Made by a program: the position numbers and the translations under genes
Shown here: positions 30,777 to 53,108 of the stretch, one piece after another
How positions within the stretch are numbered: the first letter of the stretch is position 1
How the letters are laid out: every line of letters starts with the position of its first letter
Notes under the pieces: generated by a model
Told to the model about the DNA's origin: nothing
Seen by the model: only the letters and a program-made list of their open reading frames with translations
The model's database searches: none
Assembly: GCA_026239495.1 (NCBI GenBank)
Contig: CP110830.1
Location: forward strand, 1 to 64,000
DNA from: Spiroplasma phoeniceum
Lineage (GTDB): Bacteria; Bacillota_I; Bacilli_A; Mycoplasmatales; Mycoplasmataceae
Length of the DNA stretch: 64,000 nucleotides
Reading direction: 5' to 3'

Positions 30777-33533
30777 ATGACAAAATTTACAGCAAATGCA
30801 ATTCGAAGAATGTGGTTAGATTTTTTTCGCAGTAAGGATCATTATGAATTACCTTCATTATCATTGATTCCTGTTGATGATCCGTCATTATTATGAATTA
30901 ACTCTGGTGTGGCGACATTAAAGCCATATTTTGATGGGCAAAAAACACCATCATCACCACGCTTGACAAATTCACAAAAATCAATTCGAACTAATGATAT
31001 TGAAAATGTTGGTTATACAGCACGTCATCATACTTTGTTTGAAATGCTTGGTAATTTTTCAATTGGTGATTATTTTAAAAAAGAAGCAATTATGTATGCT
31101 TGAGAATTTTTAACTGATAAAAAATGAATTGGGTTTGATCCCGCCAAATTATATGTCACAATTTATAAAGATGATGAAGAAGCTTATGAAATTTGACGAA
31201 ATGTAATTGGTTTAAGTGATGAACGAATTTTTAAAGGTGATAAGGATACTAATTTTTGAGAAATTGGGGCCGGACCATGTGGACCTAATACCGAAATTTT
31301 TTATGACCGTGGGGAAAAATATGATCCTGAGCAATTAGGATTAAAGTTATTGCAAGATGATTTAGAAAATGATCGCTATTTGGAAGTTTGAAATATTGTT
31401 TTTTCACAATATAATAATAATGGTGGCGGGACATATACTGACTTACCGCGGAAAAATATTGATACAGGTGCTGGATTAGAACGAATTACTTCAATTATTC
31501 AAGAAACACCAACTAATTTTGAAACTGATTTGTTTATGCCAATTATTAAAGCGGTTGAAAAATTAGTAAATGGAAAGTTTCATTATGATGAAACAGCATT
31601 GTTTAACAATAATTCAGAACAATTAAAAATTAATACTGCATTTAAAGTAATTGCTGATCATATTCGTGCAGTTACTTTTGCAATTGCTGATGGTGCTTTT
31701 CCGGGGAATAAAGATCGCGGTTATGTTATTCGGCGGTTAATTCGTCGTGCTAGTTTATATGGGAAAAAAATTGATTTAACAGAACCATTTTTATTTAAAT
31801 TAGTGGGAACAGTAGTTAACATTATGCAAGAATATTATTCTTATCTAGTTGAAAAACAACCAATTGTTGAACAAGCTGTGTTAGATGAAGAAAATAAATT
31901 TTTGAGAACATTAGAACAAGGAAACAAACTTTTTAATGAAGTTAAAACAAAATATGGCACTATTTCAAAAGAACATGCCTTTCGTTTATTTGAAAGTTAT
32001 GGTTTTGCAATTGAATTAATTGAAGAAGAAGCACGCGAAGCAGGAATTAGTGTTGATCGTGTTGGTTTTGATGAATTATTAGAAAATGCAAAAACAATTT
32101 CACGTACTAATAGAAAAGAGATTAAAGCAATTCATTTACAAAGCGAACTTTTTACCAAGTTAGATGTTGCTAGTCAATTTGTTGGTTATGAACATGAACA
32201 AGTTAATAATACAGAAATTGTCTTTATGTTTGCTGATGATAAACCAGTCATAGAATTAACTAATACAACAGGATATATCATTTTAAAAGAGACACCATTT
32301 TATGCTGAAAAAGGGGGGCAAGCTGCTGATCGCGGATTGATTTTAAAAGAAAATACGAAAGCCTATGTTCTCGATGTACAAAAAGGGCCAAATAAACAGA
32401 ATTTACATTTTGTTAAAGTTGAAGGGACACTTAAGATTGGAGATTTGGTCAATGCGTCAATTGACAGTGATCGTCGTTTTTATACGCGGAAAAATCATTC
32501 AGGGACACATTTGATTCATGCCGCTTTACGAGAAGTGTTAGGAAACCATGTTATGCAAACTGGTTCTTATAACGATGATGAACGTTTACGAATTGATATT
32601 ACACATAATAAAGCAATTACACCAGCAGAAATTACAGATGTAGAAGCTTCTGTTACAAAAGCAATTAAGGCCGCAATTCCTTGTGAAGTTATTTATACTG
32701 ATATGCAAACAGCATTAGATGTGCACAATGCTTTAGCTTTTTTTACAGAAAAATATGATGATGAGGTTCGAATTGTTAAATTTGGTACTTATTCTTGTGA
32801 ACTTTGTGGAGGAACCCATGTGACTAATTCACAAGATGTTGAAGATTTACTAGTAACTGGTTTGGAATCAAAAGGAGTTGGAACATTTCGAATTCATTCT
32901 ATTACCTCAAATAAAACAATTGCTAGTTATCTAAATGAACAATTTTTAAAAGAAAAAAATGAAGCAATTAATTATTTTGATAAGTATAATCAAGGCAAGA
33001 AAGAATTACCTGACCAACGTTTAGAACAAACTTCAGAACAAATTAGTAATTTAACTGTTTCAAAAACAAACTGGAAACAGTTAAAAGAGTTATTAGTACA
33101 ATTTAAAGAATATTTTAAACATTGACAAAAAAAATATGATAATATTTTAATTCAACAATTTGTCAAACAATATAATACCTTGTTACCACAAACTAAAAAT
33201 GGAATTAATGTTTTAACTCATCAATTTACAACAAAAGTTGATATTAATGCTTTAAAAGTGTTAATTGATGATTATAAAGTTCGATATCAAAACTTACTAA
33301 TTTTCTTAGTTGATGTTAGTGATGAAAAACAAGCCACATTAATTGTTGGTGTTAGTTATGATTTACAAGATCGCTATCAAGCCGGAAAAATTATTCAACA
33401 ATTGATTCCATTATTAGGTGGTAAAGGTGGCGGAAATAATAGTGTTGCTCAAAGTGGTTTTAACAATAAAGACAAAACCTTACTTGTTAAATTATTTTCT
33501 GACCCTCTAGAATTTTTAAAACATCATGGCTAA
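30777..33533 (+). CDS. alaS: Alanyl-tRNA synthetase
   Basis: 918 residues. Class II core: [77 protein letters not shown] and [12 protein letters not shown]. Editing domain: [19 protein letters not shown] (HxxxH zinc ligands) with [17 protein letters not shown]-like Cys/His ligands further on ([18 protein letters not shown]). C-Ala domain ends [15 protein letters not shown]. Charges tRNA-Ala and clears Ser/Gly mischarging. It overlaps ruvX by 8 nt, suggesting translational coupling. Confidence 0.95.
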
Positions 33534-34900: not shown

Positions 34901-35545
34901 TTAATAATTACCATAACCTCATATACCTGATATTTCAATTTGATTTAAATTAAATAGTTTTTTATCAAAAGTTATTTTAATACTATAATCAATTAAATCT
35001 TCGATTGTACTAATTCAATCTATTTTAGAATAAAGTAATTTATATCATTCAGAAAAATAATTTAAATAGTTTTCTATTTTGTCATTAGAAACAATTAAAT
35101 TAGTTAAATATTTACCATATTCACCATCAGATAATTTAATTTCTGATGGAATAAGAGAAGTAATGTTATTTGTTTCTAATTCATTTGTTATTGATAATCA
35201 ATTAAAAAAATTTGTTTCTAATCGATAAATATGATTTTCTGAAATATCTTTGTTTTTAACACTTACTCTAATTTCATTATCTTTGTTATTATTAACATTT
35301 GTTTGTTGTTTTAAATTTCAATCAATAATTTTTCCAGTACTTGAATCAATTAAAGGTTTAAGAGGTTCACCACCACCATTTCAACGATAAACTGCTTTAA
35401 AATTTCGTCCCTTATCTTCATTTCAAAAAATTCGTTCTATTTTACCTTCTGATTGATCATCTATTAATAAATCTTGTTCTTTTGTTTCAAAAACCCATAA
35501 AAAGAGATCAATATAATATGGTTTTAATGGATCTCAAGCCTCAAT
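34901..35545 (-). pseudogene. DUF3688-like C-terminal part, out of frame
   Basis: Continues the core as DPLKPYYIDLFLWVFETK, KIERIFWNEDKGRNFKAVYR, then WNGGGEPLKPLIDSSTGKII and a ~150-residue C-terminal region. It lies one frame away from the upstream ORF because of the missing A. TAA at 34901 follows GIWGYGNY; open sequence then continues in the same frame to 34802, so that stop is probably also a mutation. Confidence 0.55.
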
Positions 35546-35663
35546 TTTTTTCCTTTATTTGTATCGTGTTTAAATTTTGATATTTTTCAATAAATAGAAT
35601 TATTAGGTTTCCATATAGCAAAATATCATTTATTATCCACTTGATTAAATGGTTTTTCTTGTG
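35383..35663. repeat. 281-bp inverted repeat, right arm
   Basis: Partner of 34423-34703. The arm boundaries coincide with the points where the two reading frames change from shared DUF3688-like core to unrelated sequence, so the inversion or duplication made the present gene fusions. Confidence 0.85.
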
Positions 35664-37011
35664 CTTTAATTTCTTTTCAATAATTTACTGGAATCGGTGG
35701 ATTAGAACCAATAAAATCAAAATATAATGAATATATTTGTACTTGACAATCTGAAAAATAAAAATATCCTTCTTCTAATCTATTTGGTTTTGAAATTAGT
35801 TTAAAATAATAAAGAGCAATTAATTTAATATCATCATTATAACCTTTGTTAACAGCATATTTACTATATGTATAATTTGATAACATATAGATAATTTGTT
35901 TAAATATTTTAACAGCACCGTCATTAATAGATGTAGGAGTATCTAGTTTTCAATTTTCAAATAAACCATCAATTACATCTTCGGGTTTTTGTCCTTCAAA
36001 TTTTTGGCGTAATTCTGCCGCTTTATTGGCGGGATTACCTTTTTCATCATATTTTGCACCTTGAAATTTACGGTCATAATTATAACGATATGTTAAATAA
36101 TTTAATAAAACTTTGTCTAAACCATTTTTATTTACCAAATCTAAAATATCTTTTCCTTGAATATAGTTTTTGGCTATACTTCATGGTAAAAAACTTTCAG
36201 TAAATAAATACTGAAATATTCGTACGTTAGGATTTGTTTCGATGGGCATTGATAACAAAGGTACTAAACTAGCATTTTCAACGATTGATGATGGATAAGA
36301 ATAAACATCATTGATATGGCCTCAACATTTAATATTTCCAAATAACATTGATTTGGGATATTTAATTTCAATCCCAGTAAATACTGTATCTTCGGGTAAT
36401 GATTTTTGTAAAACTAAATGAATACTATTTTGATTTTTTCATTTAAAGTCAGTTATTTTAACTAAGTGCATAGATTTAATGATATTTACACCATCAGGTG
36501 AATAAGGTCTTTTATATTCTTCAATGATGTAGCATTCATTTTTATTGTCTTCTGTAATTGGTTCATTAATAGATACTATTTTTAATTCTAATGTTTCTAA
36601 AAATTCTTTGTTTTGTTTCGAAATATCATTGATTAAAATATCTTTTTCATTAATCATTACATAACTTGTGCTATTATCTTGTACTGTGGTGTTTTGTTGA
36701 ATTTGTAACTTAAAGTTAAAATCACTAATTTCATAACCTGTTATTTTAATATATTCATCTTTATCAATAAAACCTATTTTAACGTTATTTTGAGAGTAGT
36801 TTAAGATTGGTTTTTGCTTTGTCTTAACAAGATTATTAATTTTATAAATATATAAGGTTCTGGCACGGGCTTCACTAAATAATTGTTCTAAATCAGGGTC
36901 GCTGTACTGCGATTGATTAGCAAAATCTAACGGAATACTATCAATTGAATAATCAATTGGTTCATCATTTTCTGCTAATTGTGCTAACATTTTTTCTGAT
37001 GGTTTTAACAT
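35524..37011 (-). CDS. Phage structural-type protein fused to a DUF3688-like core
   Basis: 495 residues from ATG 37011, which overlaps the stop of the upstream gene (TAATG). Residues 1-~445 start MLKPSEKMLAQLAENDEPID and are not similar to anything I recognise. They are acidic/polar with ARARTLYIYKINNLVKTKQK and a 60-residue stretch AKYDEKGNPANKAAELRQKF. From about residue 450 it switches to the DUF3688-like core (AQEKPFNQVDNKWYFAIW) at the inverted-repeat boundary and ends shortly after a frameshift. The original C-terminus is therefore lost. Function: probably a virion or assembly protein, judged from its neighbour only. Confidence 0.5.
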
Positions 37012-38264
37012 TATTCTTGTTCTCCTTCTTGATTAGGCATATTGGTAATGGTTTCGTTGTTTTTTAATTGTCTGTTTAAAGTAGCATTTACTGGTAAGCG
37101 AACATCAACAATTAACTCATCAATATTTTTAATATTGAATGTTCTACTGTTTAAAATCGCATTATCATATTTAATTAACTTAATAATAAATTCAGTTAAT
37201 TTAATTTCTCTAATATATATCATTTGTTCATAAGAGGCGTTTGTTTGAATATTTACACCAGCAACTTCCGCTTGAGTTTGTTGTGCTCCCTTAGCAATTG
37301 CGAGAACATGATGGCGATTTATTTTATAGTAATTAGTTAATAATCAATCATATATTTTGTTTAATTGCTCACCTTTAAAATTACCAGCTATATAGTCTAC
37401 TGGTTGAAAATTACTATCGGGGTCTCCTTCAACCAATAATAAGTCATTTTCAATAAATGAAGCCAACATTTTACTAATTTCTTGGTCAACAACACCAGTA
37501 ACTCCATTAGTATTAATGGTAAATTTACCACTATTTAATAATGGATCTAACATTATCTTTTCAGCAATAATATCTAAAATACTAGCAAATTGTTTACCAT
37601 AACGAGCAGACGGTTCAAAATTAGGGTTATTAGGAATAATTTCAATGGGAATAAAATCAATTGATAATATTTCTTCTCTTTGCAATGTTGTATAGTTATT
37701 TCATTTAGAATCATCAATATATAAATCGGTAATAGTACTATATAATTGTGTTTTTAACTTTCTAATAACTTTTACTTGTTTAGTTACAGCATCAATTTCT
37801 AATTTTTCAGTAATAAAAACACTCTGGTCATTTGTAATATAAGGGTCATAATCAAAAGTGCAAGATACTAAATTACCCAATTCATTATACTGGTCATTGT
37901 AAAAATCAATAGTAATAAAATTAAGTTTTGAATTATTAGAAAAAATAAAGTATGCACCTTTGCCATTTTTATTAATTTTATATTCGTTATATCAATTCTT
38001 ATTGATAAAGTCTTGCATTTTTAAAAAGTTATTAATTAATTTAGTATCTAATTCTTGATTAGTAAGTGGATTATAAATGCTAATTTCTAAATCTCGTGGA
38101 TTTAAAAAATTAGCATTATCTTCACAAATTCTTTTTTCTAAAATCTCATTATGTTTTTGAACAGTAACATTTTTACGATTAGTAATCGTTGATGCTAAAT
38201 TAAGACAGTAACTATCAATATCATATTCTTTTTTTAACTTCTTTTTGTCTGGTAACAATCCCAT
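37011..38264 (-). CDS. Phage portal/connector-like protein
   Basis: 417 residues in one frame with TGA=Trp. RBS GAGGTG lies before ATG 38264. No membrane segments. Features reminiscent of portal or connector proteins are a mid-protein SIDFIPIEIIPNNPNFEPSA (like the family's GYIPVV.F.NN), a long helical part KQFASILDIIAEKIMLDPLL, and a C-terminal AQQTQAEVAGVNIQTNASYE with a final acidic tail. That would place it at the DNA-entry vertex of a capsid. This rests on pattern resemblance only; other phage structural roles are possible. Its stop overlaps the next gene's start. Confidence 0.45.
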
Positions 38265-38277
38265 TTATAACACCTCT

Positions 38278-38547
38278 TTATTTTGTTTCTTCTTTTTTAA
38301 TAACATCTTCAATGCTATCTTGTCTTTGTTGTTTGTTATGAGTTTTGATAAATCTAATTGTTTCAATAATTAAAACTATAATTCCAGCACAAATAAGCAT
38401 TGATGAAACAATAACATATGCTGGCCAAGAAATACCTAATGTTTTTTCTCCTATAAAACAAATAATGATTCCTGCTATAAAAAACAATGATGAAACTCCA
38501 AATATTTTCAAAAACATAATTAAATCTTTAATAGTTACTTTTGGCAT
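38278..38547 (-). CDS. Two-helix phage membrane protein
   Basis: 89 residues with RBS AAGGAG. Two hydrophobic segments, VSSLFFIAGIIICFIG and YVIVSSMLICAGIIVLIIET, and a charged C-terminal tail (RQDSIEDVIKKEETK). It sits 13 bp upstream of the portal-like gene in the same direction. Size and topology would suit a holin or a small virion membrane protein; sequence alone does not decide. Confidence 0.55.
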   Translation of the reverse strand: MPKVTIKDLIMFLKIFGVSSLFFIAGIIICFIGEKTLGISWPAYVIVSSMLICAGIIVLIIETIRFIKTHNKQQRQDSIEDVIKKEETK

Positions 38548-38564
38548 AAAACCATCTCCTTTCT

Positions 38565-39304
38565 AAATTACTTTTTTTCTTTCAATAAACACAAATCCCA
38601 AAGTTCTAAATGTTGCTGGACCATTAACTCCAATATTAATCAATCAATCCATCAGGATCAATAGATAATGCTAAGCATGCACTATTAATCCCTATTTGAT
38701 CATATATAGCACCTATTGTTTGTCTAAAACTATGCCTTGTTTGCAACATCCCTTGACTTTTTAAATCTCCTTTGCTGTCTTCTCCTGAGGCTCAAATTCT
38801 ATAAATATAACTTTCTTTATCAAAATTAGGAATATTATATCCAGTTTAACCAACTATAAAATCACTAGTATCAACAATTTCTCAATCTGGAACATTTGAT
38901 ATAACAATTGATTTTTTTAATTCATCTAAAATTTCTTCTTTTATTTTTGTAATTTCTTCTTTTATTTTTGTAATTTCTTCATCTTTAATTTTTGCAAGTT
39001 TTTCATCTTTAATTTTTTCTATAACAAGTTTATCTAATAAAGCGTCAACTTCTAATTGAGTATAATATGCTTCTAAATCAATCATTGTTAAATCAATACC
39101 TTCTTCTTGAAAAGTACGAAACATTTTCTTTAAAGTTGTTAAATTAGCCAGTGATTTTGCATAGGTAGGCAATAAACCTTGTCATGTTGCCATGTGGTCA
39201 TTTTGTGAAGAATAATTAATATTATCAACACTCATATTTGCTGAAGTAAAAAACTCAATTGGAATGCGGTTAAATGTTCAATGTTCAATCGTAATAAACA
39301 CCAT
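38565..39304 (-). pseudogene. Phage tail/fibre-like protein, broken and cut by IS-A
   Basis: Open from the IS-A copy 6 edge (possible ATG 39304). Reads [17 protein letters not shown], then a coiled coil with a 7-residue repeat (EEITKIK; the DNA repeats in 21-bp units around 38930-38980). Stops and shifts follow: TAA after DFIVG, then TGYNIPNFDKESYIYRIWAS, MLQTRHSFRQTIGAIYDQIG, a shift after DPDGLID, and GVNGPATFRTLGFVFIE. The 5' part is lost to the IS. Confidence 0.5.
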
Positions 39305-39326: not shown

Positions 39327-40396
39327 AGACTTCTTGCGATACCTGGTTTTATTATTAAAATATTATTATAAAATATAATTTATGAGGATATTAAATTATG
39401 AAATTTGATGAATTTAAAAATATTAATGATAAAGAATGATTAAGATTAACAGGAATAAAACAAGATATTTTTAATAAAATGTTAGATATTTTACAAGTAG
39501 CTGAAATAGAAAAATTTAAAAAAGGTGGCAAAGCTAATAAATTATCACTAGAAAATCGATTATTGATGACTTTATCGTATTGACGAGAATATCGAACTTA
39601 TTTTCATCTTGGAAAAAATTTCGGAATTAGTGAAGCTAATTGTTATCGCAATATCAAGTGAATTGAAGATATTTTAATTAAACACCCTGATTTTCAGCAA
39701 GTTGCTGGTAAAAAAGCACTAATAAATGATTATTTTAATTATAAAACTATTATTATTGATGCTACCGAAACCCCAATCCAACGCCCAAAAAAAGACAAAA
39801 ACAATCTTATTCTGGTAAAAAGAAAAAACACACTATTAAAACACAAGTAATTATCGAACAAGAAACCAAAAAAATTATTGCAACAAGTTTTTCACTTGGT
39901 AAAAAACACGATTATGCTTTATTTAAAGAATCAAAAATCGCAATTTTAAAAAATACCAAATTAATAGTTGATAGTGGTTATCAAGGAATACAAAAAATTC
40001 ACAATAATGTTATAATGCCCACAAAGAAAACTAAGAAAAAAAATTTAAATAAAGAACAAAAACAACATAATAGACTAGTTTCAAAAATAAGAATTATTAT
40101 TGAAAATATTTTTGCTATTCTTAAAAAATTTAAAATTATTACAGAAAAATATAGAAATCGTAGAAAACGATTTAGTTTAAGATTTAATTTAATTGCTTCA
40201 ATTTATAATTTACAATTATTATAGTTATCATAAAAGATTTATTTAAAATTAACGAATTTGAATAATAAAATAATTTTTCGTTGTGGCAAAATATTAATTT
40301 TTTAAATAAAAGACATAATTAATTAAAATTATAATTTTATATTAACCCCTTTTTACAAATATTTGAAATTATTTTAATGGGTTATGCAAGAAGTCT
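39327..40396 (+). mobile_element. IS-A copy 6 (IS5-like)
   Basis: 1070 bp with AAT duplications (39324-39326, 40397-40399). It truncates the phage tail-like gene. (Copy 5 is the rearranged derivative at 21537.). Confidence 0.9.
39398..40224 (+). CDS. IS-A transposase (OrfA/OrfB joined by -1 frameshift)
   Basis: OrfA 39398-39850, OrfB to 40224 in the -1 frame after the A7 run. DDE motifs are complete (DATETPIQ, LIVDSGYQGI, RIIIENIF) and no other lesion is seen. One change, KKHLNKE to KKNLNKE, is shared with copy 9. Confidence 0.75.
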
Positions 40397-40459
40397 AATA
40401 ACTTTATTTAAATAAGAACAAACTTTATTTTTAAACTCATTTAATATTAAATACATATT

Positions 40460-41529
40460 AGACTTCTTGCGATACCTGGTTTTATTATTAAAATATTATT
40501 ATAAAATATAATTTATGAGGATATTAAATTATGAAATTTGATGAATTTAAAAATATTAATGATAAAGAATGATTAAGATTAACAGGAATAAAACAAGATA
40601 TTTTTAATAAAATGTTAGATATTTTACAAGTAGCTGAAATAGAAAAATTTAAAAAAGGTGGCAAAGCTAATAAATTATCACTAGAAAATCGATTATTGAT
40701 GACTTTATCGTATTGACGAGAATATCGAACTTATTTTCATCTTGGAAAAAATTTCGGAATTAGTGAAGCTAATTGTTATCGCAATATCAAGTGAATTGAA
40801 GATATTTTAATTAAACACCCTGATTTTCAGCAAGTTGCTGGTAAAAAAGCACTAATAAATGATTATTTTAATGATAAAACTATTATTATTGATACCACCG
40901 AAACCCCAATCCAACGCCCAAAAAAAGACAAAAACAATCTTATTATGGTAAAAAGAAAAAACACACTATTAAAACACAAGTAATTATCGAACAAGAAACC
41001 AAAAAAATTATTGCAACAAGTTTTTCGCTTGGTAAAAAACACGATTATGCTTTATTTAAAGAATCAAAAATCGCAATTTTAAAAAATACCAAATTAATAG
41101 TTGATAGTGGTTATCAAGGAATACAAAAAATTCACAATAATGTTATAATGTCCACAAAGAAAACTAAGAAAAAACATTTAAATAAAGAACAAAAACAACA
41201 TAATAGACTAGTTTCAAAAATAAGAATTATTATTGAAAATATTTTTGCTATTCTTAAAAAATTTAAAATTATTACAGAAAAATATAGAAATCGTAGAAAA
41301 CGATTTAGTTTAAGATTTAATTTAATTGCTTCAATTTATAATTTACAATTATTATAGTTATCATAAAAGATTTATTTAAAATTAACGAATTTGAATAATA
41401 AAATAATTTTTCGTTGTGGCAAAATATTAAATTTTTAAATAAAAGACATAATTAATTAAAATTATAATTTTATATTAACCCCTTTTTACAAATATTTGAA
41501 ATTATTTTAATGGGTTATGCAAGAAGTCT
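40460..41529 (+). mobile_element. IS-A copy 7 (IS5-like)
   Basis: 1070 bp with ATT duplications (40457-40459, 41530-41532). It lies only 63 bp from copy 6 in the same orientation; the 63 bp between encode no recognisable gene. It truncates the RuvC-like phage ORF. Confidence 0.9.
40531..41357 (+). CDS. IS-A transposase (OrfA/OrfB joined by -1 frameshift)
   Basis: OrfA 40531-40983, OrfB to 41357. The first Asp region reads DTTETPIQ and the post-shift region SYYGKKKK instead of SYSGKKKK; the frame is otherwise complete, with all three acidic residues. Confidence 0.75.
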
Positions 41530-41942
41530 ATTATTTATTGCTTCTTCTTCATTTTTGGAATTAAAAGTAATATTATTAATTATTTTCTTTTGCAAAACAT
41601 TATAAATAATAATACCAGTTTGTCCAATTCCAGCAGGGTCAATTGCAATAATATATTTTAATTTATTTGTTTTATTTTTTTGTCAATTTGTAATATTTTT
41701 CATCCATCCGAAGCTAAATCTAAAATATCGTTAATTTTGTAATGTTGCATATAAGAAGCAATAACATCTCACTCGTCTTTAAATAAATTTAAGTACATTT
41801 TGGCTCATTCTAAACACTGCAAATCATAATGATTTTTATGATGTGAAATACGACAATTAATAGGCTGACAATTAACTCAATCAAATAATGTTGTTATTTC
41901 ATTCCAAGTTTTATTAATATATTTACTTTTATATTCTTTCAT
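41530..41942 (-). CDS. Phage RuvC/RNase H-like protein, 3' truncated by IS-A
   Basis: About 137 residues from ATG 41942 (RBS AAAGGA). N-terminal part MKEYKSKYINKTWNEITTLF, then HHKNHYDLQCLEWAKMYLN and YKINDILDLASDGWKNI. The last part, YIIAIDPAGIGQTGIIIYNV, looks like the first strand of a RuvC/terminase-nuclease fold, with an Asp followed by Gly-x-Gly and Thr-Gly. IS-A copy 7 removes the rest, including the other acidic residues. A second damaged copy is at 58567. It starts next to the conserved phage leader block, so it is the first gene of that transcript. Confidence 0.5.
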
Positions 41943-41959
41943 AATATTTTATTCCTTTC

Positions 41960-42452
41960 TTTTTATTTTTTTAAATAAACAGAAAATCACTTTGTTGGTT
42001 AATATTTTGATATTTAGTAATAATATTTGTATTTTGATTTAATTAGCTTAATTCGCCATCCACCTCACTTTTTTTTGAGGGGTGGTGGCGATACTAAAAT
42101 TCTATATTTAAACAGAGTTTACCCCCCATACGGAAATAAACAAAAAGCAGTTTACAAAGTTATTAATTACGCTTCATCCATCCCTAGACAACTTTATATA
42201 AAGAAAATAACCTTTTGGAGTTCCAGCCCTCTTGTTTTTTTAGTGTCCGATATTGTTTTTTCGGTTTAACAGCACTCTTTTTATGAAAACAAGCAAAAAA
42301 CACGCGCTCTGACATTTCGCAAGTGATTAATCTTGCCGAGAATTAAAGAAATAAATAGGAATAAATCCAATCGCTTTCACACTTTCTTTAAGGCTTCGTG
42401 CCATAGATGAGTTATCCATCTTTAAGCATAAAAAAATATTAAGTTTTATGGG
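41960..42452. other. Conserved phage leader block, copy 1
   Basis: Non-coding and less AT-rich than its surroundings, shared with 51195-51642 and (inverted) 58069-58560. It contains a strong hairpin (42054-42090), TTTTTCGGTTTAACA-like and GGCTTCGTGCC hairpin motifs, and CATAGATGAGTTATCCATC. Each copy lies upstream of a phage ORF, so it may be a phage origin, promoter and leader, or a structured RNA. Confidence 0.6.
42054..42090. other. GC-rich hairpin in phage leader block
   Basis: CGCCATCCACCTCA pairs with TGAGGGGTGGTGGCG across a T-rich loop, with one bulge and one mismatch. Equivalent stems of different sequence exist at 51247-51279 and 58421-58455. Confidence 0.65.
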
Positions 42453-42593
42453 TTGCATTATTCATCGGATAATACCTTTATTTAAAAGGAAATTTATAAA
42501 AATATCGTTTATTTTGTGTAGGGAAAACAGAATAATATCTGTTTTTATGATAAAAATTCTAAATTTAAAGATACTATCCGATGAATAATGCAA
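42453..42593. repeat. Inverted-repeat element at the leader edge, copy 1
   Basis: 141 bp bounded by ~28-bp arms starting TTGCATTATTCATCGGATA. It occupies the same place as elements at 57928 and 51643. Confidence 0.7.
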
Positions 42594-42639
42594 ATAAATT
42601 TATGTTGTTTAATATAAAAATAAAAAAAACAATCTCACA

Positions 42640-42844
42640 AGATTTGTTTTTTGCCGGTTCATCGTACAGGACGCCTTTTATTAAAAGTAGCTTTTTTAGC
42701 TCCGGTTAATCGCAATAATTCTTTATCATTAATAAAATTAAATTTATCAAATTTCATAATTTTAATCTTCTATAATTTCTATTTTAATTTAAAAATATTT
42801 TATAGGAATTTTAAAATAATTAGATTATGTTATGCAAGAAGTCT
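42640..42844 (-). mobile_element. IS-A' 5' end fragment
   Basis: About 170 bp of the transposase-start end of IS-A' (from about 42676), ending GGTTATGCAAGAAGTCT-like at 42844 and followed by AAT. It joins directly to the sequence GGTTCATCGTACAGGACGCC, also found beside the phage block at 57849. Confidence 0.7.
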
Positions 42845-43022
42845 AATAAATAAAAGCTTATAGTTCTTTTTTATTAATACTTACTAAACTTGGCGCAGTC
42901 TATCCTCTTTTATTTTTTTTAATATTTAATTATACAAGTATTCATATCAAAAGCAAGAAAAAAATGATATAATTTTAAAGAAAAAATTTATTGACGGTTA
43001 TAATTTAAAAATTTGAGGTAAA
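42845..43022. promoter_or_regulatory. Upstream region of the hydrophilic-protein cluster
   Basis: Holds a decayed IS30-type end (ACTTACTAAACTTGGCGCAG, about 42880-42900), then an extended -10 TGATATAAT (42965-42973), and a second TATAAT at 42999-43004 closer to the gene. RBS TTGAGG lies just before 43023. Confidence 0.4.
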
Positions 43023-45047
43023 ATGATGGCTAGTAAGAAATTAAATGAAACAAAACAATTACAAGAAGTTAATAATAATTTAATAATAAATTTTAATGAA
43101 AGAATGCTTATTAAAATGCTAACTAAGTCTTGGAAAAATTCAGAACCATATTTAAAGCTAATGGAAGAATATCAAAATTTGAATTCAAATAGTGCAATTG
43201 ATTGAAATCAACGTTATGAAAAAGAATATGAAAAATTTGTTAAATTATTATTAGGAGAAAATGCACAATTTAAAAAAACCTCAAGTAAAAAATCATCATT
43301 ATTTAAAAAAGAATTGGCAAAAAATGCAACGAGTAGCAATAAAACAATGGGACTAAATCCTAGCCAGTTAAGATTATTGTCAAAACGAAAATTATCGCGA
43401 GTTGAAGACTTATTTCCATCGCGAGTTGTTCGTGGTTATCAAGCATCACAAGAAGCAATTGAATCAGAGATAAAACAACCACGTCAAGCTTTTTTAAATA
43501 ATAATGAATCTGTTTTAGCAAGTTTGCCAACCGAACAAGTTGTTAAGAATGACCTAACCTTAGATGATAATATAAAGTCTGATAAAGTATTTCCTTCATC
43601 AGAAGAAACTGAAAATATTATTAGTAAGTTAAATCCAAATCAGCAATGATTAATCCGACAATGCAATGAAAGTTATTGACTATTTAAAAGTCAAACACAA
43701 GGTTCAAAAAATGACAGTCAAAACGAGAAAACAATTGAATCATTAAAAGGATTTAACGAACAAGTGAAAGAACATGCAAATAATTGAGGATTAAATCAAA
43801 ATCAATTAGAATTGTTATCACGACGAGATAATACTAAACATGATTTTAATCCATATTCAAATTGAGCGCGAGAAGGTTATCATCCAGAAGAAGATTATTC
43901 TTTATCAAATCGGGGTCTTAAACCGCGGTCATTAGATGAAATTAAAGATCAAATGAATTTAAGTAAAAATCAATTAGAATTGTTGTCACGTCGGAATTCA
44001 CATCCTTCAGAGTGAAAACAACATATGCAGCAAATCACACATAAAAAAGATAAAAATGAGACACCAATTGTGATCAATCCGGAACATGTTATTAAAAAAC
44101 GTGATCAAATGGTCAAAGAATCATTATCCCGTAGTTTAGGAAAAACTAAGAAACAAATTGGTGGTAAATATATTCGTAATTTTATAAAAGGAGAACCAAA
44201 ACAAAAACCAATTTTTAAAACTGATCTTTATTTAGAACCTGATATTACTAGACAAATTAATCCATTAATGATAAAACCATTAAAGAAGATTAATTCAAAA
44301 TTATCAGTAGAAAAAAATGAAACAATTGGGCCAAATTTAACTTTCACAAATGCAATTAGTAGTAAGCAAAAGCAACCATTTTTGAATGGAACTAGTCAAA
44401 ATAGTGTACCTACTAAAACAATAAGGGCTAGCAATAATAAAACATTAATTGAACAAACACAAAAAAATAAAAATGATTACATTTCAACTATTGATCCTAA
44501 AAAACGCCCTAATTTAAAAAAGTTAAAATATGGTAATGATTATGAAAAAAATAATAATAAAGTTTCTAATTTAAAAATAACAAAAAAACAATCTAATTTG
44601 ATAGCAGAAGTAAATAATCAAACATTTATTCCTACTAAAAGAAAAGACGCGGATTTGATTTTATATACACGGAAAGAATTAAAAGATTATCAAATTGATT
44701 ATGCTGATTCGACAAAAAAACCTAATTTAACAGTTGATTTAACGGAAAATGAATACACTTATGCAGGATATCATCCTCGTGAAATTCGTGAAATTCATCG
44801 TCGTCAGTTAGAACAACTTCATCAACGTTTATTAAAAGAAAAATTAATTAAAAAAAATATACGTAAAGAACGGCGTTATCAAAAAAAACTTAATAATAAA
44901 AAAGAAAAGCCTAAACCATTACCACAAATTTTAATTGAAAAATATCGTGCTGAAGGAAAAAAAGTTATTGATGGTTTTTTAGTTGAAGACTATAATAATG
45001 AAAAGAATGAAACAATAAGTAGTAACAATAAAGTGGCAGAGAATTAA
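43023..45047 (+). CDS. Large hydrophilic repeat protein, lineage-specific
   Basis: 674 residues in one frame with several TGA=Trp. ATG 43023 after TTGAGG; a second ATG follows directly. No signal peptide or membrane segment; very rich in Lys, Asn and Gln. A motif of the form L(N/S)xxQLxLLS(R/K)R occurs three times, near residues 110, 256 and 311. Near residue 490 is IDPKKRPNLKKLKYG and near 563 DSTKKPNLTV, a D..KRPN motif also found in the next genes. The C-terminal 100 residues are a basic coiled-coil region (HRRQLEQLHQRLLKEKLIKK). No family recognised; a structural or scaffold role is plausible but unproven. Confidence 0.7.
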
Positions 45048-45049
45048 CA

Positions 45050-45637
45050 ATGGAAAATAAAAAAATTTCAACAGCCGAATTAATTCGTAAATATTTTGAT
45101 GAAGTTGTGACATCGAGCGGCATTGATCCTCAGAAAAGACCTGATGTGGCCTTACAATGAGCGCGAGAGAAAGAATTGTGAGCACAAGAGGCAGATGCTA
45201 TTGTTCAAAAACAATTATTACAAGCATTAGCAAATAATAATAAAATTCAAATACAACAAGTACAACGTCAACAAGAGTTAGCGCTTCGTGATTTACAAGA
45301 AATTAGATTAAATGAATTAAAAAAACGAGAAGAATATTTGGCTACATTATCAAAGCCAGTTAAATTACCAAAGATAAATAAAAAAATATTAAATAGTGAA
45401 GTTAATGGATTAGAATTGCAAGCAAAGCCATTATTTAAAAATAGAAATGACATTAATAAAATTTCAACAGCAGAAGATAATTATGGCACTATTTTTATGC
45501 GAGAAATTGGTCGTGCATTGTTAGATGAATATAATATGTATCATCAACCACAAGAACAAGAATCTTTGCTGCTATCAACTGAAAAATCAATAAAAAGTAA
45601 GAGGCATCGTTATCTTCGCAAAAAAAGTCCAAAATAA
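45050..45637 (+). CDS. Hydrophilic coiled-coil protein with D..KRP motif
   Basis: 195 residues, MENKKISTAELIRKYFDEVV, then SSGIDPQKRPDVALQWARE near residue 25, resembling the D..KRPN motif of its neighbours. The middle is a Gln-rich coiled coil (IQIQQVQRQQELALRDLQ). It ends in a basic tail. Starts 2 bp after the previous stop, so translation is probably coupled. TGA codons at positions 38 and 44 are Trp. Function unknown. Confidence 0.65.
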
Positions 45638-45739
45638 CGCTGATAATCTTTAAGTTAAAAAAGATATAATATTTTAAATAATTTATTAAAAAAAGCAAAG
45701 TTTTTATTAAAAAAAATTTAAAAAAGTGCAAAAATTTTA

Positions 45740-45793
45740 TATAATATATGTAAATATCGAAAAACAAAAAAATAGACAAAAGAGGAATAGAAA
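45740..45793 (+). promoter_or_regulatory. Possible promoter and RBS in the 45638-45793 gap
   Basis: TATAAT at 45740-45745 in an A/T-rich spacer, RBS AGAGGA before ATG 45794. No clear -35. Confidence 0.35.
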
Positions 45794-46219
45794 ATGGCAA
45801 AAGAAAAAGACTCAGAATCTGTCGTAACTTATCGTGTCAATTATGAAAACATTATTGATTCTGATTGAGATACAACATAACTAATGGATAAAAAATTAAC
45901 GCCAGCAACAATCAAGGTTTTATTGGGACAATTAGATGAAAATAGTGCCGAATACCAAGCGTTAAAACAAAAATATGTTAACAAAGTTTTTGGAACTAAA
46001 AAAACAGGTGTTATTCGTTTAAAGGATAAAAAAAGAAATATTTTAGAAGAGCAAAGAGCTAAAATTAAATTTATTGATTATAGTTATCGGGTTGAAAAAG
46101 AAATTCCTGTTTTGCAAAGATTAAAGAATCACAAAGCAAAACAATGAGTTAGTAAGAAAGCAGGGTCAAAATCAAAGGCTTTCTTACCACAATTTTCACC
46201 AGTAATGTCATTATCATAA
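45794..46219 (+). pseudogene. Small basic protein gene split by an in-frame TAA
   Basis: ATG 45794 with RBS AGAGGA gives MAKEKDSESVVTYRVNYENI then DSDWDTT and TAA (45878-45880). The same frame resumes at once with LMDKKLTPATIKVLLGQL and runs to TAA 46217 (111 residues from ATG 45884). ATG 45884 has no RBS, so the most likely history is one 141-codon gene with a nonsense mutation. Translation of the downstream part, if any, would need reinitiation or readthrough. No family recognised. Confidence 0.5.
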
Positions 46220-46249
46220 GAAATAACAACTACTACCTAGCAAACGAGT

Positions 46250-47437
46250 ATGCCGAAGAAAATGTCTGTTAAAAATGCCAATTCTAAAACAGAAAATTTA
46301 ATGAAACCGTCATCAAAAGATAGCGAGCACACTAATGACCAGTTTTCTACTTTCTCAACCTGAAATCATTTTGATGCTAATCAGGTTAAAAATAAATTAG
46401 AATTATCAAACTCGTTTGAAGACGGACCTAAAACAATTATTCGTCGAAAAGAAACAGAAGAAGTAATAACAATTCGTCGTGATTTACGACCAATCTTGGC
46501 ACAAAAAATTTCTCAAATTAAACAGAATGGTTTATCAATTGTTGATTTTGTTGTTGATCCAAATGATAAAATTGAAATTGAAAAAGGAGATGAAGAAATT
46601 CTTGTTCGTTTAATTAAACAATCACCAGTTTAAATTATTTTAAATGAATTTACTGAAAAAGATATTACTCCGCCAAAACCAAAGCCAGTTAAAATAATTC
46701 GGACAGCAGAAGACCCATTATCAATTGAAGAACGATTAATTTTACGATTAGAAAATAAAAGTTGTTTTCAGAAATTGGCTGATGCAGAGCAAAAGCAATT
46801 AGAACAATTAAAAGCAACTTTTGCTGCAAAACTAAATTATAAACAAACAAAAAAGATCGAGAAACTGCAAAGGCAAAGAAAGCGATTAATAATCAAACAA
46901 ACAAACTAATAACTGATGAACAAGAATTATTGTTTGATGAAAATATTTACAAAAAAAAATTATAATCATCGTTATGATGAAACAAAACGGCCAAATATTG
47001 AAGAAAGATTAGTTTATGATCAAAAAATGATGGAATATTTATTTGAAGTTCGACGTCAATATGAACAAGGATATAATCGTCAAATTTATCAAGAATTAGC
47101 TTATTTTAATCGAGCTATTAACTTATCACGAGCAATTAAAAATAATGATGAAGAATTAAACGATGCAATTTAAAAAAACCGTAGTGAATCAATTTACCTA
47201 TTAAGCAATCATGTTATGCTATTAAACCAAAAGCAATATGTTGAAATTAAATTGCTAAATAAAAAAGTACTTAAATATAAAGATACAAAAGGAAACCCTG
47301 AAGAGTTTATTAAACGTCAAAAGGAATTACGACGGTTATTAAGAATTCGTGATGAAGTTAAAGAAAATCGACAACTTTTAATTGAATCATTACGAGTGCA
47401 AGCAAAACTAATGCAAGACGCACGTAGTAGAAAATAG
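46250..47437 (+). pseudogene. Hydrophilic D..KRPN-type protein, multiply mutated
   Basis: Starts MPKKMSVKNANSKTENLMKP. TAA after IKQSPV (46631-46633) lies in the middle of an otherwise open frame. A shift in an A run near 46850-46856 is compensated by another near 46952-46960. It returns to NYNHRYDETKRPNIEERLVY (the cluster motif) and QELAYFNRAINLSRAIKNND, then TAA 47171 and again open sequence VEIKLLNKKVLKYKDTKGN to 47437. About 395 codons in all. No family recognised. Confidence 0.5.
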
Positions 47438-47516
47438 TGTATTAATTATTAATTATCACCTCGTTAAGTATTAATCAAATATTTATAAACCTTAAGGAGA
47501 TAGGAGGTAACGAGAA

Positions 47517-47969
47517 ATGATAATATATATAAAAACAGGGCATCTTTACTTTTTACGCAATGGAAAAATCATTTGCATTGATCGGATGGACCCCAATGAA
47601 ATGTTTTTTGCAGGTAATGCACAAGATAAAAATAATTTTCTTATTTATAATGTTTATATTGAAGATAATGTTACAGAAGCATGTAATAAAAAGGAATATA
47701 TTTTATTAAGAAATGCTAAATTAGATGATAAATTACTGTATTTACATTCAAAAGAAATTATATTTTTAAAGTTGGCAGAAATTAAAGCTCCATTACTAGT
47801 AGACGGGGTTCATGTTCGGGTACAAGAAAAAATATTTGATTATCAAGAAGCTTTAGCACGTAGATATAATGAAGAATTAGTTGAAAAATTAACAGAAGAA
47901 GATAAAATTCAATATCGATATGCACATCAAAAACGAACTAATCATTTTTGACATCGTAAGAAATCATAG
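47517..47969 (+). CDS. Hypothetical cytosolic protein
   Basis: 150 residues. It has the best RBS in this region (AGGAGGT, 8 bp before ATG 47517). Starts MIIYIKTGHLYFLRNGKIIC; a beta-rich N-terminal part (GKIICIDRMDPNEMFFAGNA) is followed by helical RYNEELVEKLTEEDKIQYRY and a basic end. No family recognised. The gene cluster continues with 48007 and nusB in the same direction at short spacing. Confidence 0.65.
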
Positions 47970-48006
47970 GTTTCTTTTTTACTTAATTTAAAGAAGGGAG
48001 AATAAG

Positions 48007-48672
48007 ATGTTAACATTTAAAAAACGACGTTATTTAGTTAAAATTCGACAGGATCTTGGTTTACCGCCGTTGAATTGAAAACAAGAGTTATATTCTGAGC
48101 AATATTATGGCTTTGATAAGATTATTGAACGATATGTTTGGACTGTTAATTATATGTGATATTTTAAAAATGTTACTTTTTATGATTATTTTAGCCGTAT
48201 TACATATTATTTTCCACGCTTAATTTTAACGAGAAAAAATATTTATTTTTTAAAAATCAAAACATTATCTGAACCAGTAACAACAACATTAACAACTCCA
48301 ATGTGAGAACAAAGGAAAGGTTTAATTACTTCGCCAATTGTAACACAACAATTTATGATTAATCGGATGGTTAAATTACTTGATACAAAACAATTTTTAC
48401 GTACTGCTATAATTAATTTGGTTGTGATTAATAGTAAAGAACCATTTATTGTTAGTGACTTGGTGCCTTATAATAATATTCAAATAATTAATCAGCAAGA
48501 AATGCATTGAAGTGATATAATAAAAAATATTGAAAAAAAAGATGATTTAACGATTGATCTTTTTGCCGATGAAACAATTTTAATGTTACATAATTTGTTA
48601 AGCGAGCACAGTCATCGCCATAATTATCGGTTACAAAAAAGTAGTTTATTTTGTTTATATCATTATATTTAA
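48007..48672 (+). CDS. Hypothetical protein, possibly nuclease-related (NERD-like)
   Basis: 221 residues, RBS AAGGGAG before ATG 48007. Aromatic-rich N-terminus (YVWTVNYMWYFKNVTFYDYF), then SPIVTQQFMINRMVKLLDTK and TAIINLVVINSKEPFIVSDL, a beta-hairpin pattern loosely like NERD domains. C-terminal HNLLSEHSHRHNYRLQKS. The NERD idea is tentative, as the catalytic residues are not evident. nusB starts 13 bp later. Confidence 0.5.
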
Positions 48673-48685
48673 AGGAGTATGTTAC

Positions 48686-49066
48686 GTGTCAAAACGCCAA
48701 GAACGCATTAATATTATTAATTTGTTATATCGTCACTTTGTTTTACAACATAATGTTTTAACAACAAAACAAGAAGCATATGATTTCTCACAAATGGTAA
48801 CAACTTCTATGGGAACAATTCAAGTTGAGAAAATATTATCAAATCTATCAGATATTATTGCGAAAATTAATCAACATTTAAAACCAGGATGAAATTTTGC
48901 TCGTTTAAGTAATTATCATAAGGCTGTTTTAGTATATGGAGTTTATGAAATTTGTTATCAACAATTAGCAAAGGCAATTGTCATTAATGAAAGCTTAGAA
49001 ATTTTAAAATTATATAGCGAAGATACTGATTTTAGTTACATTAATTCAATATTAGATCAAGTTTAA
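48686..49066 (+). CDS. nusB: Transcription antitermination factor NusB
   Basis: 126 residues, GTG start 48686 with AAGGAG 9 bp upstream. All-helical NusB pattern: SKRQERINIINLLYRHFVLQ at the start, GWNFARLSNYHKAVLVYGVY, then AKAIVINESLEILKLYSEDT and a C-terminal INSILDQV (usual FINGVLD.V). It binds boxA RNA with NusE and prevents early termination on rRNA operons. Last gene of the cluster; IS30 and IS-A' debris follows. Confidence 0.88.
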
Positions 49067-49111: not shown

Positions 49112-49165
49112 TAGACTACACCCAGTTTAGTAAGTATTAACAAAAAAGAGTTATAAACTTTTATT
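49112..49165. mobile_element. Solo IS30-type end
   Basis: GACTACACCCAGTTTAGTAA, nearly the same 50 bp as at 14284, again directly followed by an IS5-type element. Confidence 0.6.
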
Positions 49166-49169
49166 TATT

Positions 49170-50241
49170 AGACTTCTTGCATAACATATTAAAAAATTGC
49201 AAATATTTGTAAAAAGACACTAATATAAAAATATAATTTTAATTAATTATGTTTTTTATTTAAAAATTTAATATTTTTCCACAACAAAAAATGAATTTAT
49301 TATTTAAATTATTTAATTTTAAATAAATCTTCTATGCTAACTGCAAATTATAAATTGAAGCAATTAAATTAAATCTTAAACTAAATCGTTTTCTTCGATT
49401 ACGATATTTTTCTGTAATAATTTTAAATTTTTTAAGAATAGCAAAAATATTTTCAATAATAATTCTCATTTTTGAAACCATTCTATTACGTTGTTTTTTT
49501 ACTTTATTTAAAGGGTTTTTCTTTGTTTTTTTGTAGGTATTATAACATTATTGTGAATTTTTTGTATTCCTTGATAACCACTATCAACTATTAATTTGGT
49601 ATTTTTTAAAATTGAGATTTTTGATTCTTTAAATAAAGCATAATCATTTTTTTTCAAGCGAAAAACTTGTTGCAATAATTTTTTTGGTTTCTTGTTATAT
49701 AATTACTTGTGTTTTAATGGTGTGTTTTTTCTTTTTAACAGAATAAGATTGTTTTTGTCTTTTTTTGGGCGTTGGATTGGGGTTTCGGTAACATCAATAA
49801 TAATAGTTTTATCATTAAAATAATCATTTATTAGTGATTTTTTACCAGCGAGTTGTTGAAAATCAGAATGTTTAATTAAAATATCTTCAATTCACTTGAT
49901 ATTGCGATAACAACTAGATTCAATAATATCAAAACTTTTAGCAAGATGAAAATAAGTCCGATATTCTCGTCAATACGATAAAGTCATCAGTAGCCGATTT
50001 TCTAGTGATAATTTATTATTTTTGCCACCTTTTTTAAATTTTTCTATTTCAGCTACTTGTAAAATATTTAACATTTTATTAAAAGTAGCTTTTTTGCTCC
50101 GGTTAATCGCAATAATTCTTTATCATTAATAAAATTAAATTTATCAAATTTCATAATTTTAATCTCCTATAATTTCTATTTTAATTTAAAAATATTTTAT
50201 AGGAATTTTAAAATAATTAGATTATGTTATGCAAGAAGTCT
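49170..50241 (-). mobile_element. IS-A' copy 2 (IS5-like, degenerate)
   Basis: 1072 bp between AGACTTCTTGCATAAC and GTTATGCAAGAAGTCT. Flanking triplets differ (ATT left, AAT right). The transposase remnant (start near 50152, reading MKFDKFNFINDKELLRLTG-like) has frameshifts, for example in the lysine-rich region near 49660-49690 and before the A7 site, so it is inactive. Confidence 0.8.
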
Positions 50242-52038: not shown

Positions 52039-53108
52039 AGACTTCTTGCATAACCCATTAAAATAATTTCAAATATTTGTAAAAAGGGGTTAATATAAAA
52101 TTATAATTTTAATTAATTATGTCTTTTATTTAAAAATTTAATATTTTGCCACAACGAAAAATTATTTTATTATTCAAATTCGTTAATTTTAAATAAATCT
52201 TTTATGATAACTATAATAATTGTAAATTATAAATTGAAGCAATTAAATTAAATCTTAAACTAAATCGTTTTCTACGATTTCTATATTTTTCTGTAATAAT
52301 TTTAAATTTTTTAAGAATAGCAAAAATATTTTCAATAATAATTCTTATTTTTGAAACTAGTCTATTATGTTGTTTTTGTTCTTTATTTAAATGTTTTTTC
52401 TTAGTTTTCTTTGTGGGCATTATAACATTATTGTGAATTTTTTGTATTCCTTGATAACCACTATCAACTATTAATTTGGTATTTTTTAAAATTGCGATTT
52501 TTGATTCTTTAAATAAAGCATAATCGTGTTTTTTACCAAGCGAAAAACTTGTTGCAATAATTTTTTTGGTTTCTTGTTCGATAATTACTTGTGTTTTAAT
52601 AGTGTGTTTTTTCTTTTTACCAGAATAAGATTGTTTTTGTCTTTTTTTGGGCGTTGGATTGGGGTTTCGGTAACATCAATAATAATAGTTTTATCATTAA
52701 AATAATCATTTATTAGTGCTTTTTTACCAGCAACTTGCTGAAAATCAGGGTGTTTAATTAAAATATCTTCAATTCACTTGATATTGCGATAACAATTAGC
52801 TTCACTAATTCCGAAATTTTTTCCAAGATGAAAATAAGTTCGATATTCTCGTCAATACGACAAAGTCATCAATAATCGATTTTCTAGTGATAATTTATTA
52901 GCTTTGCCACCTTTTTTAAATTTTTCTATTTCAGCTACTTGTAAAATATCTAACATTTTATTAAAAATATCTTGTTTTATTCCTGTTAATCTTAATCATT
53001 CTTTATCATTAATATTTTTAAATTCATCAAATTTCATAATTTAATATCCTCATAAATTATATTTTATAATAATATTTTAATAATAAAACCAGGTATCGCA
53101 AGAAGTCT
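52039..53108 (-). mobile_element. IS-A copy 8 (IS5-like)
   Basis: 1070 bp; flanking triplets AAT and ATT do not match. The right flank is IS-B. Confidence 0.88.
52211..53037 (-). CDS. IS-A transposase (OrfA/OrfB joined by -1 frameshift)
   Basis: ATG 53037, slippery A7, OrfB ending at 52211 in the correct -1 frame. DDE complete. One silent-looking change near 52860 (CAATACGAC) marks this copy. Confidence 0.74.

Follow-up and report, generated by a model that had tools for sequence, protein, structure and literature searches.

What brings together the lysine- and asparagine-rich proteins encoded directly upstream of nusB in a Spiroplasma genome of 2.18 Mb, and does the short peptide of the form D..KRPN that recurs in them mark a common binding partner, a common ancestor, a local structural preference or mere chance? 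We considered these possibilities for a stretch of 64,000 nucleotides from this genome (the window), whose frames are open under code 4, together with the 14 genomes of the genus and 46 other genomes of the family. The best named match of one of the proteins encoded here, P221, is from S. phoeniceum P40 (92% identity).

A block of hydrophilic proteins upstream of nusB

The genes stand in the order A-B-C-P150-P221-nusB, with A to P221 upstream of nusB (Table 1). This block recurs, complete or incomplete, in 13 of the 14 genomes of the genus, which settles the doubt, raised beforehand, whether the cluster is conserved in relatives; profiles of B and P221 found no match in the family's 46 other genomes. 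An earlier note on this DNA had counted five to six genes upstream of nusB; four of the frames (45884-46219, 46250-46633, 46916-47173 and 47216-47437) belong to the single gene C. The C frame of the window holds six TAA and one TAG among its early in-frame stops and C forms one open frame in relatives, so that these small ORFs are pieces of one pseudogene.

Table 1. Features of the nusB-proximal block in the window
Feature	Coordinates	Strand	Remarks
Gene A	43023..45047	+	674 aa, hydrophilic; four L..QL.LL.RR repeats, two motif sites
A repeat 1	43353..43394	+	LNPSQLRLLSKRKL
A repeat 2	43629..43667	+	LNPNQQWLIRQCN; degenerate
A repeat 3	43791..43832	+	LNQNQLELLSRRDN
A repeat 4	43959..44000	+	LSKNQLELLSRRNS
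A motif site 1	44493..44513	+	DPKKRPN; 7-column window ranks 1/770, full identity
A motif site 2	44706..44726	+	DSTKKPN; relatives vary, K[KRT]P[DN]L
Gene B	45050..45637	+	195 aa
B motif	45125..45145	+	DPQKRPD
Gene C	45794..47437	+	pseudogene here, 7 early in-frame stops; ~548 aa where open
C motif	46976..46996	+	DETKRPN
P150	47517..47969	+	150 aa; member of the conserved block, without the motif
P221	48007..48672	+	221 aa; member of the conserved block, without the motif
nusB	48686..49066	+	closes the gene block; matched the NusB family

With GRAVY values of -1.11 for A, -0.86 for B and -0.93 for the intact C of a relative, and with K+N+Q+E making up 39%, 37% and 35% of their residues respectively, these proteins are hydrophilic. 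For these three the earlier description as Lys/Asn/Gln-rich soluble proteins devoid of known domains holds, given their GRAVY, their composition and the outcome of the family searches: no A, B, C, P150 or P221 protein, nor any of the further carriers D, E, G and the g9 cluster described below, passed the Pfam/NCBIfam cut-offs, in searches that paired some but not all of the proteins with each library. Profile searches of the PDB with A, B, C and P221 gave no match at E 0.01, and none of seven proteins (A, B, C, P150, P221, D and G) matched the PADLOC models of anti-phage defence at the same threshold. AlphaFold2 models of P221 and P150, at mean pLDDT 38.4 and 46.4, are too poor for use. A NERD-like nuclease fold, considered for P221, found no support: 11 members gave no match to NERD in Pfam at a limit of E 10. 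Protein A carries four repeats of the form L..QL.LL.RR, one of them degenerate, in place of the three (as L..QL.LLSRR) reported earlier; across ten aligned rows, each A protein has 3 to 5 copies.

A short motif in otherwise dissimilar neighbours

The recurrence of the motif across neighbouring genes is borne out at four sites in A, B and C. Searched as D..K[RS]P[ND], it matches the DNA of the window 3 times, against a mean of 0.02 in 100 shuffles, none of which reached 3. The codons used at the four sites differ, so that recent duplication of DNA is not their cause. Conservation is strongest in A, in which site 1 is the best-ranked of all 770 windows in an alignment of 10 rows with a mean column identity of 55%; the motif windows of B (rank 52 of 196) and C (78 of 574) are conserved somewhat above average, and site 2 of A (228 of 770) is ordinary.

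Profile comparison of A with B yields an alignment over 13 columns that amounts to the motif alone. Since they align nowhere else and their codons differ, the motif shared by A and B looks like convergence at the protein level. The alignment of C with A is weak and lies at another place than the motif, and C aligns weakly with B outside its own motif, where C reads KKTGV or KKPGV; this region is possibly a further degenerate site or a trace of old homology with B, and the two proteins may thus be old relatives. The latter observation, together with the adjacency of the three genes and their similar composition, would fit a descent of A, B, C and the further carrier D from one ancestor, with the motif as all that can still be recognised of it. 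Such remote paralogy appears quite improbable to us, as it sits badly with the bare motif alignment of A and B, with the misplaced similarity of C and A, and with the existence of D relatives at the same genomic place in clades whose D has no motif.

Enrichment of the motif in one genus

In the 14 genomes of the genus, D..K[RS]P[ND] has 57 matches and the reversed pattern 4. Six protein families account for 47 of the 57: A (14), B (8), C (12), D (10), E (2) and F (1). Matches were assigned by position and ORF, except for one in C (G002:C2:170), which was assigned from its sequence and an adjoining B match. Across the family's 46 other genomes, 14 matches stand against 16 in the control, that is, there is no general excess of the motif. 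The concern that it might be equally common in unrelated proteins is thereby answered. The variant KKP[ND] shows no enrichment in the genus (9 matches versus 15 in the control).

The ten matches outside A to F comprise seven instances of DNWKRPN, one site in an alpha-amylase and two with serine. Six of the seven DNWKRPN sites share the context GAGS.PDNWKRPN, which by eye resembles an antisense reading, and this common context indicates that conserved chance matches do exist. These ten may be fortuitous; extending that explanation to the motif as a whole, as chance similarity within a proteome rich in lysine and asparagine, seems extremely unlikely in view of the excess over the control in this genus and its absence from the other genomes, the conservation of the sites, and the comparison of the window with its shuffles.

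Text searches of the papers available to us found Spiroplasma and the letters KRPN nowhere together, and Spiroplasma alongside 'short linear motif' only in work on disorder in general; a search on nusB was answered only by work on Mycoplasma hyosynoviae.

Carriers outside the block

Family D measures 519-599 aa in its open copies, and in G005 it has four hydrophobic segments at its C-terminal end, with the motif before them. Among 38 entries scanned for D and its relatives, which represent 36 distinct places because one locus had been entered twice and two loci covered one place, 32 have the string GLSGGVDSS after D or its relative; we took this string to denote an mnmA-like gene, and it recurs at two further loci of genus g9. 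Relatives of D exist in other clades, and the motif was seen only in the members from the genus of the window; outside it D..KRPN was not found in them, the sole degenerate form being DIAKSPN, seen once. The D of G007, putatively S. phoeniceum P40, reads DITKWPN. The family that precedes the mnmA-like gene (L016, L076, L084-L104 and L174-L176) spans several Spiroplasma clades, begins with IK[IV]LKI and contains NSHFF in many members.

E has the motif near its C-terminus in two close genomes. F is a VirB4-like ATPase of the window genome (G000) that matched TraG/AAA models and ends in NYDPSKRPNLTNK; this tail is absent from the six plasmid relatives checked among the 40 listed, so that F, a single protein, is weak evidence. 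G, found through the KKP[ND] form, is matched in 8 of the 14 genomes, G000 not among them; its six aligned rows all keep [IV]DP.K[KR]P, followed by N (in two only), S or T.

Different host proteins carry the motif in other lineages. All three genomes of genus g9, a second clade, encode a protein of ~268 aa that ends in DLSKRPNL, DLSKRPNI or DLSKRPEL and has no significant similarity to A, B or C; in the g9 comparisons, as in that of A and B, the peptide is thus shared by proteins that show no homology elsewhere. A further protein, of G048, has DISKRPNL close to its start. In g9 the ~268-aa protein is the second of four adjacent proteins (~590, 268, 390 and 315 aa; loci L172, L165 and L173, in three genomes), which lie after an efp-like gene and a ~100-aa gene and before a tig-like gene. 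We suspected this cluster to be orthologous to A-B-C, a suspicion to which the comparison lent no support.

The sequence around these sites bears on whether the motif is simply a local turn that caps the next helix, arisen repeatedly in coiled lysine-rich proteins and binding nothing in common. By eye, helical-looking sequence does follow it in B and C, whereas loose-looking or tail sequence surrounds it in A, D, E, G and the second clade, where it may even form the very C-terminus. A capping turn also accords poorly with the lack of excess for the control pattern and in the 46 other genomes, and we regard this explanation as unlikely.

Conservation and loss of the carriers

A, B, C, P150 and P221 are all open in six of the 13 genomes with the block (G001, G005, G006, G009, G010 and G013), and P221 is open in 13 of 13. 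Elsewhere members are broken or cut: A, B, P150 and D in G002; B, P150 and D in G004; P150 in G007; and A and D in G008. In G003 C is broken by one frame change. G012 has two copies of the block, in which one A is a remnant and the other, longer A is without site 1; C and P221 each have one broken copy, and a search for D found none in this genome. Some of the single frame changes may be sequencing errors, an explanation that is unlikely for the seven stops in the C of the window. On a second contig of G002 (G002:C2, ~170-1925) the end of B and the C motif are present once more.

The window itself was said in the earlier note to hold two decaying members; we find one, C, and the second broken carrier is D, which lies elsewhere in the genome (203.9-205.1 kb, with a C-terminal piece near 1088 kb). 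The accompanying idea that the system is losing its use in this strain therefore agrees with the broken C and D and disagrees with A and B, which are open. Given broken members in several genomes, some lineages can apparently do without the motif proteins.

A putative docking motif

A core that is kept in otherwise different proteins, mostly in loose-looking segments or tails, and in hosts specific to each clade behaves like a docking peptide of a single conserved partner. Our preferred interpretation, to which we give a probability of roughly 0.6, is that Spiroplasma alone uses D..K[RK]P[ND][LIVF] as a short docking motif, through which each carrier would bind the same folded partner, such that A, B and C would be gathered with the membrane-anchored D. 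The carriers (A, B, C, G and E, and in D the stretch before its hydrophobic end) have little or nothing else in common, and the earlier suggestion that the shared motifs reflect binding to one partner is retained as the best reading. Protein A, with its two motif sites and a different kind of repeat in four copies, is a plausible scaffold, probably unstructured to go by its composition, and D would hold the set at the membrane, making the whole a candidate membrane-linked scaffold. The putative partner would be a single protein encoded outside the cluster. G011 and genus g9 have no match to B or P221, and G011 nonetheless possesses an open D with an intact motif; the partner is thus probably neither of these two proteins.

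The C-terminal tip of SSB, the C-terminal peptide of FtsZ and the sliding-clamp motif are shared docking peptides of bacterial hubs. As in those systems, the peptide would be one of 6 to 9 residues that recurs in unrelated proteins, often at their tails, and marks binding to a hub. It differs from them in its consensus and in an excess observed only in Spiroplasma, and in those systems the hub is known. Docking motifs of this kind are well established for a few bacterial hubs; here a candidate turns up among the lineage-specific proteins of an organism whose genome is small. If the docking motif is real, a peptide of about nine residues would be a ready bait for the hub, and six families (A-E and G) would be tied to one process in an organism with an unexplained tip structure and polarity.

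Possible relationship to the cytoskeleton

A special case of docking, rather than an alternative to it, is that the carriers are parts of the swimming cytoskeleton, either the ribbon or the tip dumbbell, with MreB, fibril or a dumbbell protein as the partner. We rate this rather unlikely. The motif excess and the carriers of the second clade do fall in genera with at least five MreB-family matches per genome, yet genus g8, with 6 to 9 such matches per genome across 20 genomes, has 7 motif matches against 7 in the control. The genome in which A, B, P150 and D are broken (G002) is putatively S. citri R8-A2, and S. citri is described, at the species level and in the portion of the source available, as helical and motile. 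By description, the carriers resemble the long, hydrophilic, lineage-specific scaffold proteins of the Mycoplasma pneumoniae terminal organelle. G003, which we take to be S. eriocheiris, encodes an A of 540 aa and a D of 566 aa, and G048, which may be S. sabaudiense, carries the motif.

None of the 16 lengths of Triton-insoluble proteins listed for S. eriocheiris in the available part of PMC5289999 equals either of these two, and by length comparison neither A nor D can be recognised in the accessible Triton-insoluble and ribbon lists of this species (PMC5289999, PMC9582952). The available part of PMC9663586 reports S. sabaudiense to be without fibril. The same partial text of PMC5289999 states that S. 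eriocheiris has no gene similar to 15 tip components of the M. pneumoniae terminal organelle, and little has been established about what the dumbbell consists of, according to the portions available of PMC5289999 and PMC8432965, which counts in favour of such a role. Like the components of the internal ribbon (fibril and MreB1-5, as given in the accessible parts of PMC9582952 and PMC5289999), the carriers are Spiroplasma-specific; unlike them, none of A to D could be picked out by length among the identified ribbon proteins, and members are broken in a genome that matches a helical species. A search for fibril through the nucleosidase fold (PF01048) in four genomes returned open frames of at most 265 aa, short of fibril length, and was set aside. 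A bolder version, in which a docking code peculiar to helical Spiroplasma is read by a single folded hub, located at the membrane or the cell tip, that would recognise KRPN on A as a multivalent scaffold, on B, C and G and on D as membrane anchor, and so build a cortical or polar structure that has escaped sequence searches, possibly the dumbbell, is a speculation that in our estimate has rather long odds.

Genomic surroundings of the block

Gene names in these surroundings were assigned by eye. G003 and G006 have the order alaS-like, ruvX-like, A-B-C-P150-P221, nusB, xseA-like; G009 and G010 likewise have alaS- and ruvX-like genes upstream of the block, with an ABC-transporter-like gene 3' of nusB, and in G001 the upstream genes are different. 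In the window, an alaS-like gene (30777-33533) is followed by phage-like genes and transposase copies before A is reached. With an alaS-like gene upstream both here and in relatives, the block of the window lies near its usual upstream neighbour. The phage-like genes, of 495, 417, 89 and 152 aa, occupy 35524-39304 on the minus strand.

An inverted repeat of 104 nt (81%), at 42799-42902 and 49112-49215, encloses the entire A-to-nusB block. Transposase-like fragments adjoin both of its copies, which are thus probably insertion-sequence ends flanking the block here. One transposase-like gene is present in several copies (39398-42757, 49508-50074 and 52211-53037), which are split into frames of 150 and 69 aa or into shorter pieces.
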